From an uncultured Lachnospiraceae bacterium (GTDB taxonomy: Bacteria > Bacillota > Clostridia > Lachnospirales > Lachnospiraceae), in the NCBI GenBank assembly GCA_902775555.1, contig CACYMQ010000030.1, positions 1 to 50,044 of the forward strand: a DNA stretch of 50,044 nt, written 5' to 3'. This document shows positions 21,621 through 25,749 of the stretch, piece after piece. The notes beneath the pieces are model-generated. The model was given only the letters and a program-made list of their open reading frames with translations, had not been told where the DNA came from and did no database searches. The translations under genes and the position numbers were made by a program. Position 1 is the stretch's first letter. Each line of letters begins with the position of its first letter.

Positions 21621-22112
21621 ATGGGGAAGTTAAATGCCGCATCCGCGGCAAGGATCCGAGAGATCTGCGACCGTTACAAGGATGAGAAGACCCCTCTCAT
21701 GATGATCCTCAGCGATATCCAGAATGAGTATGGGTATATCCCGCTGGAGGTTCAGGAGGTGGTATCCGAGAAAACGGGTATTTCCGTAGCAGAGATTTAC
21801 GGAGTAGTTACGTTCTACTCCTTCTTCTCGCTGAAACCAAAAGGAAAATATGTCATCGGCTGCTGTCTGGGAACCGCCTGCTATGTCAAGGGTGCCCAGC
21901 AGGTGATCGACAAGTTCTCCGAGCTTCTGGGGATCGGCCCCGGCCAGACAACAGAGGATGGTCTTTTTACCATCGATGCACTCCGCTGCATCGGAGCCTG
22001 CGGTATTGCTCCGGCAGTCAGCATTAACGGCAAGGTGTATCCGAAGGTCAGCGTAAATCAGGTACATGACATCGTTGCCTCCTATCAGGATGCAGAGAAA
22101 GGAGGAAACTAG
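21621..22112 (+). CDS. hydC: NuoE-like [2Fe-2S] subunit of NAD(P)-linked [FeFe] hydrogenase
   Basis: A 163-residue protein of the 24-kDa NADH-dehydrogenase subunit family. The four cluster ligands are in CLGTACYVKGA and CIGACGIAPAV. PLMMILSDIQNEYGYIP and EIYGVVTFYSFF are the N-terminal helical signature. It passes electrons between the HydB flavin subunit and the rest of the enzyme. AGGAGG lies 7 bases upstream of the ATG. The stop codon directly abuts the hydB ATG. Homologues are called HydC, HymA or HndA. Confidence 0.93.
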   Translation: MGKLNAASAARIREICDRYKDEKTPLMMILSDIQNEYGYIPLEVQEVVSEKTGISVAEIYGVVTFYSFFSLKPKGKYVIGCCLGTACYVKGAQQVIDKFSELLGIGPGQTTEDGLFTIDALRCIGACGIAPAVSINGKVYPKVSVNQVHDIVASYQDAEKGGN

Positions 22113-23959
22113 ATGATCAGGGATATGAAAACTCTGGAAAGTTCCATCGCATCCTGCACGAAAGCGATGGATGAGAAGTTCAAAGGTCTGGACGGCAAGC
22201 GCCATATCGTTCTCTGCGGCGGTACCGGATGCCTCTCCAACAATTCCATGGAGATCAAGGAACGTTTTGAAAAGATACTGAAGGATGAGGGACTGGATGA
22301 TCAGGTGACGGTAAATATCGTCGGCTGTTTCGGTTTCTGCTCCCAGGGACCCTTCGTTAAGATCTACCCCGAGGATACCCTCTACCGCCTGGTAAAGGTT
22401 GAGGACGTGGATGAGATCGTTCATACGGATATCGTGAATCATACGGTGGTATACCGCCTGCTCTACGTGGATACAGCCACCGGTGAGAAGGTAACGAAGC
22501 AGGAGGATATCAACTTCTACAAGAAGCAGCGCCGTGTGGCTCTCCACAGCTGCGGCGAGATCAATCCCGAGGATATGAACGAAGCACTGGGTGCAGGCGC
22601 ATTCCAGGGCCTGAAGCGCGCTCTGTCCATGACTCCCCAGGAAGTCATCGACGAGGTCCTTGCTTCCGGCATCCGCGGACGCGGAGGCGCAGGCTTCCCT
22701 TCCGGCCGGAAGTGGCAGTTTGCCCGCAATGTAGAGAGCGATGAGAAATATGTCGTATGTAACGGTGACGAGGGTGATCCGGGTGCATTCATGGATCGAA
22801 GCATCCTTGAGGGAAATCCCCTGGCAGTCATCGAAGGCATGATGATCGCCGGATATGCCATCGGCGCATCCAACGGAACCGTCTCCGCAACGCCATCAAG
22901 CAGGCGCGGGAAGCAGGTCTTCTGGGAGAGAAGATCCTCGGAACGGATTTCTCCTTCGACTGTCATCTCCGTCTGGGTGCAGGTGCTTTCGTCTGCGGTG
23001 AGGAGACAGCACTTCTTAACTCCATCGAAGGAAAGCGCGGCATGCCCCGTCCCCGTCCGCCGTTCCCGGCAGTAAAGGGACTTTGGGAGAAGCCGACCAT
23101 CATCAATAATGTGGAGACTCTGGCATGTATCCCCTTCATCCTCCGGGAAGGAGCAGAGGAATTTGCCAAGGTAGGAACCGAGAACTCCAAGGGTACCAAG
23201 GTATTTGCCCTGGGCGGTAAGGTAAATAATGTCGGACTGGTGGAGGTTCCCATGGGAACCACACTCCGCGAGCTGATCTACGATATCGGCGGTGGTATCC
23301 CGGGTGGCAAGAAGTTCAAGGCCATTCAGACCGGCGGACCCTCCGGCGGATGTCTCACCGAGGAATTCCTGGACGAGCCCATTGATTTCGACAACCTGGT
23401 TGCCAAGGGATCCATGATGGGTTCCGGCGGTGCCATCGTTATGGACGAAGACAACTGTATGGTGGATGTAGCCAAGTTCTACATGGAATTCATCTGCGAT
23501 GAGTCCTGTGGAAAATGTTCTCCCTGCCGGATCGGTACAAAGCGCATGCTGGAGATCCTGACACGGATCACGGAAGGCAAGGGAACCATGAAGGATCTGG
23601 AACAGCTGGAAGAACTGGCAAAGACCGTAAAGACAAATTCACTCTGTGCACTTGGTCAGACGGCAGCCAATCCCGTAACTTCCACGCTGAAGCACTTCCG
23701 GGATGAATATATCGCGCATATCCGCGACAAAAAATGTCCGTCCCATGTCTGCAAGAACCTGATGGAATATGTGATCGACAAGGACAAATGCGTGGGCTGC
23801 GGTCTCTGCTCCAGAGGCTGCCCGGTCGGTGCGATCCACAAGACAGACTATACACCGGAAGGCCATAAGCTGCCCTCCTACACCATCGACACTTCGAAGT
23901 GCATCAAGTGCGGCGCCTGCATCAGCACCTGCCGTATGCGTGCTATCTCGAAGCAGTAA
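22113..23959 (+). pseudogene. hydB: NuoF-like hydrogenase subunit, broken by an internal deletion and frameshift
   Basis: The N-terminal part (22113 to about 22883) has a thioredoxin-like [2Fe-2S] domain (CGGTGC, VGCFGFC) and the start of the NuoF fold with GRGGAGFPSGRKW and NGDEGDPGAFMDR. After ASNGTV the frame is lost. The match resumes in another frame at about 22883 as [17 protein letters not shown], then [13 protein letters not shown], the [12 protein letters not shown] cluster motif and two [4Fe-4S] motifs ([22 protein letters not shown]). The conserved segment expected between them (of the form YVRAEYP..AVER, about 12 residues) is missing. The 1847-base span is 2 modulo 3; adding 37 bases gives 628 codons, the usual size. 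It may be a real mutation or an assembly error. A ribosome binding site AAAGGAGG is present. Confidence 0.85.
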
Positions 23960-23979: not shown

Positions 23980-25749
23980 ATGGCAAAGATCAATATTAAA
24001 ATCGAAGGCATTCCCTACGAGGTAGAGGAAGGCATGACTATACTGGAGGCTGCAAAGTCCTGCGGATATGAGATCCCCTCACTCTGCACCTTCAATCACG
24101 GTGAGTGCAATCTGGGTTCCTGCCGTGTCTGTCTGGTAGAAGCAACCGGTGCCAGAGGTCTGGTGGCCAGCTGCGTCTATCCGGTATCGGAAGGGATGGA
24201 GGTCCGGATCTCCTCTCCCGCTGCGGTTGAAGCAAGACGTGAAAGTGTGGAGCTTCTACTCTCCAACCACAATAAAAACTGCCAGCAATGTGAAAAGAAT
24301 GAATACTGTGAGCTGCTGCATGTTGCGAAACTGACCGGTGCAAGGGATGATGCCTTTGCCGGCATGCACAGCAAAACTTACCTCGACACTCTGGCTCCCG
24401 GTCTGGTTCGGGATACTTCCAAATGTATCCTCTGCGGCCGTTGCGTAGCCCGGTGCCAGAATGCACACGGACTCGGGATCCTTGGCTTTGAAAACCGAGG
24501 ATTCAATACCATGGTTTCACCGGCGGAGAACCGGAGCTTTGCGGATTCTCCCTGTATCCAGTGTGGCCAGTGCGTAAATGTCTGCCCCACCGGTGCTTTG
24601 ATGGAGCATTCCGAGATCCGGCTTGTGGATGAAGCCATGCAGGCAGGTAAGCATGTGATCGTTCAGGTCGCACCGGCTGTCCGGGCTGCATTGGGAGAAG
24701 AATTCGGATATCCCGTGGGCACTCCGGTAACCGGTAAAATGATCGCCGCGCTGCGAAGGCTCGGTTTCGAGAAGGTATACGATGTAAACTTCGGTGCAGA
24801 CCTCACCATCATGGAGGAAGGCCACGAACTGCTCAGCCGTATCCAGAACGGCGGCATCCTTCCCATGATCACGTCCTGTTCACCGGGATGGATCAATTAT
24901 GCGGAGTACAACTACGGCGATCTTCTGCCCCATCTGTCCTCCTGCAAATCCCCTCACGAGATGCAGGGTGCCATCCTCAAATCCTACTGGGCAGAACAGA
25001 AGGGCATCGACCCCAAGGATATCTTCGTTGTATCCGTCATGCCCTGCGTAGCCAAGAAATTCGAGCGTCAGCGTGAGCAGCTGCAGGTAAACGGACTTCC
25101 GGATGTAGATGCAGTCATCACCACAAGAGAGCTGGCGAAGATGATCAAACGAAGCGGTATCCTCTTCCCGCGGCTTCCGGAGGAAGAATGGGATCCGGAT
25201 ATCATGGGCGAGTACTCAGGCGCAGCCGTGATCTTCGGTGTCACCGGCGGTGTTATGGAAGCGGCACTTCGTACCGTCTATTACAAGCTCACCGGCCAGG
25301 AGCATGATCAGATCACCTTCGAAGAGGTACGCGGACATGATGCGGGAATCCGTGAAGCTTCCCTCGACATCAACGGAACCACCGTAAATGTGGCGATCGC
25401 TTCCGGTATGAAATCCGCAAAGGTACTTCTGGAGGAGATCCGGGAAGGGAAGTCCAAATATCAGTTTATCGAGATCATGGGTTGTCCCGGCGGATGCATC
25501 AATGGCGGCGGCCAGCCCTATGTACGTCCCTGCTTCCTTCCGAACGAGGATGACGATATCATCGACACCTACAAAGAGAAGCGGGCCAGGGCACTGTACT
25601 CGGAGGATGAACGCCGTACGGTACGTCAGTCTCATAATAACCCGCAGATCATAGAGCTGTACGATAAGTTCCTGGGCGCACCAAACTCCCATAAGGCTCA
25701 CAAGCTGCTTCACACCACATATGCCGCAAGGGAAGGCTTTAACGGCTAA
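23980..25749 (+). CDS. hydA: [FeFe] hydrogenase catalytic subunit
   Basis: A 589-residue enzyme that reduces protons or oxidises H2. Domains in order: plant-type [2Fe-2S] (CTFNHGECNLGSCRVC), His-ligated [4Fe-4S] (HNKNCQQCEKNEYC), two [4Fe-4S] (CILCGRCVARC, CIQCGQCVNVC), then the H-cluster domain with L1 TSCSPGW (298-304), L2 MPCVAKK (354-360) and L3 EIMGCPGGC (498-506). All H-cluster cysteines are present. I start at MAKINIKIEG (23980), preceded by GGGAG, rather than inside hydB. With hydC and hydB it forms a NAD-coupled, probably electron-bifurcating, cytoplasmic complex. The HydEFG maturases are not in this window. Confidence 0.95.
   Translation: MAKINIKIEGIPYEVEEGMTILEAAKSCGYEIPSLCTFNHGECNLGSCRVCLVEATGARGLVASCVYPVSEGMEVRISSPAAVEARRESVELLLSNHNKNCQQCEKNEYCELLHVAKLTGARDDAFAGMHSKTYLDTLAPGLVRDTSKCILCGRCVARCQNAHGLGILGFENRGFNTMVSPAENRSFADSPCIQCGQCVNVCPTGALMEHSEIRLVDEAMQAGKHVIVQVAPAVRAALGEEFGYPVGTPVTGKMIAALRRLGFEKVYDVNFGADLTIMEEGHELLSRIQNGGILPMITSCSPGWINYAEYNYGDLLPHLSSCKSPHEMQGAILKSYWAEQKGIDPKDIFVVSVMPCVAKKFERQREQLQVNGLPDVDAVITTRELAKMIKRSGILFPRLPEEEWDPDIMGEYSGAAVIFGVTGGVMEAALRTVYYKLTGQEHDQITFEEVRGHDAGIREASLDINGTTVNVAIASGMKSAKVLLEEIREGKSKYQFIEIMGCPGGCINGGGQPYVRPCFLPNEDDDIIDTYKEKRARALYSEDERRTVRQSHNNPQIIELYDKFLGAPNSHKAHKLLHTTYAAREGFNG

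Follow-up and report, generated by a model that had tools for sequence, protein, structure and literature searches.

The window analysed here, a stretch of 50,044 nucleotides, corresponds to contig C30 of a draft genome that totals 3.01 Mb in 96 contigs. The genus of this genome takes in Eubacterium ruminantium FB3002 (G002) and Lachnospiraceae AC2029 (G006), the latter a closed genome. The window carries an operon in the order hydC-hydB-hydA (Table 1). HydA matched the NCBIfam model for group A6 of NADH-dependent [FeFe] hydrogenases (NF040763) with 823.7 bits, above the cut-off of 765, and Pfam recovered PF02906 (1.2e-96), Fer2_4, NADH-G_4Fe-4S_3, and Fer4, showing the H-cluster domain and the N-terminal 2Fe-2S/4Fe-4S domains to be present. 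A NuoE-type HydC is encoded upstream, as expected for HydABC (group A3, or A6 in NCBIfam). In the second piece of hydB, Pfam detected two Fer4 stretches; a C-terminal HydB domain with two 4Fe-4S clusters is described in the relevant section of PMC9499530 as a mark of bifurcating members. The locus thus resembles the trimeric, NAD-dependent, electron-bifurcating HydABC of A. woodii (7q4v), T. kivui (8a6t), and T. maritima (7p5h) in gene order and in the domain make-up of HydA and HydB, including the C-terminal ferredoxin domain of HydB. It differs from them in that hydB, as assembled, is 37 bases short and a full-length HydB cannot be read.

Table 1 Features of the hyd operon in the window
Feature	Coordinates	Strand	Evidence
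hydC (NuoE-type, 2Fe-2S thioredoxin-like), intact	21621..22112	+	Pfam PF01257 (8.2e-49); NuoE/HoxE models
hydB first piece: 255 native codons and 65 out-of-frame codons to stop	22113..23075	+	ORF, Pfam, tblastn
hydB junction: 37 bases of relatives missing, 0-1 base homology	22876..22877	+	DNA alignment; homology count is our reading of the alignment
hydB second piece, different frame: remaining FMN domain, SLBB, NADH_4Fe-4S, C-terminal 4Fe-4S clusters	22886..23959	+	ORF, Pfam, tblastn
305-codon ORF within hydB second piece, putative restart if the break is real	23042..23959	+	ORF list
hydA ([FeFe] hydrogenase catalytic subunit), intact, L1 motif TSCSPGW	23980..25749	+	NCBIfam NF040763, Pfam

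A reading made from the sequence only had held that hydC and hydA keep all their cofactor ligands. The hydA gene is indeed intact, but its product has TSCSPGW (window 24871-24891, residues 298-304) where C. pasteurianum HydA has TSCCPGW, placing a serine at one conventional H-cluster cysteine position. We take the replaced cysteine to be a cluster ligand. The same motif was found in 67 of the 69 HydA proteins matched at 45% or more among the 80 genome-contig loci. The idea that TSCSPGW makes this HydA a dead enzyme was dropped, as the solved A. woodii HydA1 has the same motif.

The sequence-only reading had also proposed that hydB lost about 37 bases, with a change of frame and the absence of some 12 residues near the flavin/NADH site. 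The observation was borne out. Exactly 37 bases are absent between positions 22876 and 22877, a length that rests on the gene spans (1884 bases in the closest relatives, 1847 in the window) and on the DNA alignment with 11 close relatives, the G006 nucleotide gap list showing no single 37-nt gap in hydB. This gap is the sole one in the window row of the alignment, and all 11 relatives keep the segment. The frame opened at 22113 ends at a stop at 23073-23075 (320 codons), and the true continuation of hydB lies in another frame and runs to the stop at 23957-23959. Using tblastn, codons 1-255 and 268-627 of G006 HydB matched the window at 95% and 96%, respectively, in two frames; codons 256-267 plus one base are lost. 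The Pfam Complex1_51K model gave a concordant picture, with positions 3-74 on the first piece, 89-149 on the second, and 75-88 unmatched. A single intact HydB with a complete FMN domain was therefore not found in the assembly, the gene being split over two frames, which is probably an assembly fault. No second hydB copy was found in the window genome, nor any NuoF-type gene above the family cut-off. A programmed frameshift, or a naturally shorter working HydB, has nothing in its favor beyond the open frames on both sides; the bases that would code for 12 residues are missing altogether and have not just changed frame, and the segment is kept in the aligned relatives as well as in the three solved HydB compared, making this explanation extremely improbable.

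Across the genus, hydB is a single open frame of 628-653 aa in 34 of 60 relatives, and the remaining matches were shorter pieces, weak RnfC-like matches, or none. In all eight loci checked, the short hydB was traced to a contig end; six of these carry the 5' part of the gene, and the matches in G022, G037, and G047 begin at contig base 1 or 2.

Recombination between short GTCT direct repeats had been put forward as the mechanism of the loss. The alignment with relatives does not support this, and the mechanism was rejected: the GTCTC found there belongs to the normal hydB sequence, with CGTCTCCGC at the same place in several relatives, GTCTCCGC is native hydB sequence, and the homology at the junction is 0-1 base. 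The repeat or microhomology required for a deletion of that type was thus not found.

We then compared 555,270 bases of the window genome with the syntenic stretches of G006, covering 258 genes at 60% identity or more and 229 at 70% or more, the latter possibly containing a few spurious antisense ORFs. Three genes had frame-breaking losses free of Ns: hydB, hydG, and a gene of 403 aa. The hydG gene (C35:25004-26397, L124) is split by a 22-nt loss, with hydE upstream and hydF downstream, both unsplit. The 403-aa gene (C5:109831-110959), which had no Pfam match, lies in three frames after two losses of about 80 nt in total. In addition, a run of 13 Ns at C1:210201-210213 replaces about 67 nt of G006, and in another draft of the genus (G046), 6 Ns stand in place of 46 nt in hydE. 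The reverse comparison gave only the hydB row in 257 genes and no independent case; a looser reverse run had one 83-aa G006 ORF split, which dropped out in the stricter run. The difference between 3/229 and 0/257 broken genes is weak (Fisher p = 0.10). It should be noted that most gaps of at least 10 nt in the G006 nucleotide comparison fall in poorly aligned stretches. Three candidates were rejected as broken genes: C1:194556-196173 and C5:50653-50864 are antisense ORFs, with the sense genes open in the former, and C5:55163-55904 has a 31-nt insertion near its 3' end that reads as a tandem copy. The split row at C1:129237-130777, which differs in a variable N-terminal stretch, was left out of the count.

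The three broken genes appear to remain under constraint. Against G006, dN/dS was 0.046 before the hydB break and 0.033 after it, and 0.047 and 0.033 for the two pieces of hydG. In the 403-aa gene, the two longer pieces gave 0.052 and 0.044, and the last piece (29 codons) 0.22. The pieces of more than 100 codons thus span 0.033-0.052, like intact hydA (0.034). Beyond the break, hydB had dN/dS values of 0.007-0.033 against seven relatives, and 2 private amino-acid changes versus 23 private silent codons, which lies inside the spread seen for the intact relatives. The relaxed selection expected of an established pseudogene was seen on neither side of the hydB break, and by our estimate the break can take up no more than about one tenth of the history of this lineage alone. 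A real 37-base deletion would consequently have to be very recent, leaving a truncated HydB, possibly a restarted 305-aa piece, and a loss of FMN and NAD coupling. The clean, N-free window row fits such an event, as does the fact that hydB is the only split gene among the window genes common to G006, and null alleles of recent origin do occur in bacterial populations. However, selection beyond the break is not relaxed, the losses in two further genes would need to be very recent too, and the junction has no repeat; we regard a real deletion as unlikely.

We find it probable, though not certain, that the organism has an intact hydB and that the 37 bases disappeared from the sequence when the assembly joined two contig ends. 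The near absence of homology at the junction fits this. The sequence-only reading had left the choice between a recent loss in the strain and a local assembly error, and the latter is better supported by the losses in hydG and the 403-aa gene, the wrong-size N gap, and the lack of relaxed selection. We infer the join from the exact loss, its absence from relatives, the similar losses elsewhere in the assembly, and the N gap that is too short; the N-free losses and this gap point to contig ends that would have been joined with too short or zero gaps at several sites. In hydB, the ends would have abutted without overlap and without Ns, and a short piece would have been dropped, so that the frame merely looks broken. 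Such scaffolding or gap-closing errors in draft and metagenome assemblies share with this case the short losses in conserved genes, the wrong-size N gaps, and the fragmented state of the draft; the lack of Ns at the hydB junction is a difference and speaks against a join error. Also against it are the weak difference in broken-gene counts, the dN/dS of 0.22 for the last piece of the 403-aa gene, the absence of essential genes from those shown to be broken, and the common pathway of hydB and hydG, two of the three broken genes, a share inflated because C30 and C35 were chosen for the hydrogenase genes that sit there.

An assembly tangle at shared k-mers was also considered. The missing stretch ranks at the 91st, 95th, and 98th percentiles of hydB for exact 20-, 25-, and 31-mers common between species, and in 18 of 105 loci a contig end falls within hydB. 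Contig ends within hydB were not clustered at shared k-mers (p = 0.39), and this candidate was set aside, the placement of the ends giving it no support. The G049 draft stops at hydB base 795, within the missing stretch; by our estimate, chance alone would give such a coincidence about one time in three (18 ends over about 1780 bases). A search for a 16S gene in the window genome found none, but the same search came up empty for 5 of the 14 named genomes used as controls; a missing 16S would be weak evidence for a metagenome bin.

The maturases HydE, HydF, and HydG were then surveyed across the genus. In the window genome, HydE and HydF exceed their cut-offs and are unsplit, and the loss that splits HydG is of the same kind as that in hydB. 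Of the 61 genomes of the genus, 11 have a HydG above its cut-off and 32 have such a HydF. Three genomes, G004 (closed), G020, and G030, have HydE and HydF over cut-off and distant HydG-like matches of about 167-183 bits (cut-off 312). Nine genomes that are 95-100% complete and have open hydA and hydB frames (G002, G003, G005, G015, G016, G017, G021, G026, and G059) have no HydE, HydF, or HydG above the family cut-offs: HydF reached at most 95 bits (cut-off 325.55), HydE at most 49 bits (cut-off 254.6), and HydG gave no match, while it was readily found in the positive controls G006 and G046; G006 has all three maturases. Between two of these nine genomes, G016 and G026, hydB dN/dS was 0.0065 and 0.037, indicating that purifying selection persists. 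If the absence of maturases holds, either another route of H-cluster assembly exists or these complexes are not hydrogenases, which would matter more than the hydB break. Literature searches, judged from their listings, gave nothing on point for HydABC without maturases, and a search for E. ruminantium and hydrogenase found no papers.

These patterns raise the question of a coordinated decay, in which hydB and hydG would be breaking as the lineage gives up H2 metabolism, as the relatives without HydE, HydF, and HydG may suggest. The two genes make up most of the broken set, and the patchy occurrence of HydG and HydF in the genus agrees with this. On the other hand, hydE and hydF are intact in the window genome, hydB is intact in the relatives lacking maturases, constraint is undiminished in all three broken genes, and the choice of C30 and C35 favors hydrogenase genes. 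Because the 403-aa gene, with no known link to H2, is broken likewise, decay specific to H2 genes stands only as a rival, and we judge it very unlikely. A related view, drawn from the nine genomes without maturases, takes the losses in hydB and hydG as genuine and as the most recent stage in a genus-wide separation of HydABC from H2, with a complex that may work without a mature H-cluster; it appears to us quite unlikely, if slightly less so.

The analysis suggests that the hydB break is a mistake of genome assembly rather than the loss of an enzyme. The part of PMC9499530 that deals with T. maritima HydABC describes the HydB FMN as the site of NAD and as the proposed site of bifurcation. An intact HydB would carry FMN where NAD(H) reacts; if the break were true, the HydB product would consist of 255 native residues followed by 65 foreign ones, the 305-codon ORF at 23042 could restart, and NAD coupling would therefore be lost. 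According to PMC6776011, rumen surveys also use HydB to mark A3 hydrogenases. Read literally, the break would have a rumen-type bacterium scored as having lost NAD-coupled H2 metabolism, with consequences for how ruminal hydrogen and methane are modelled.

Further genes of related kinds were seen in the window genome. The [FeFe] hydrogenase large domain occurs in one more protein, encoded by a 503-aa frame on a 4.3 kb contig (C80:670-1374, L113). Two neighboring frames on C35 (3463-3711 and 5307-5930) have Nuo-like parts: one of 637 aa matches NuoF at its C-terminus, and the other, of 942 aa, has a NuoG-like N-terminus.
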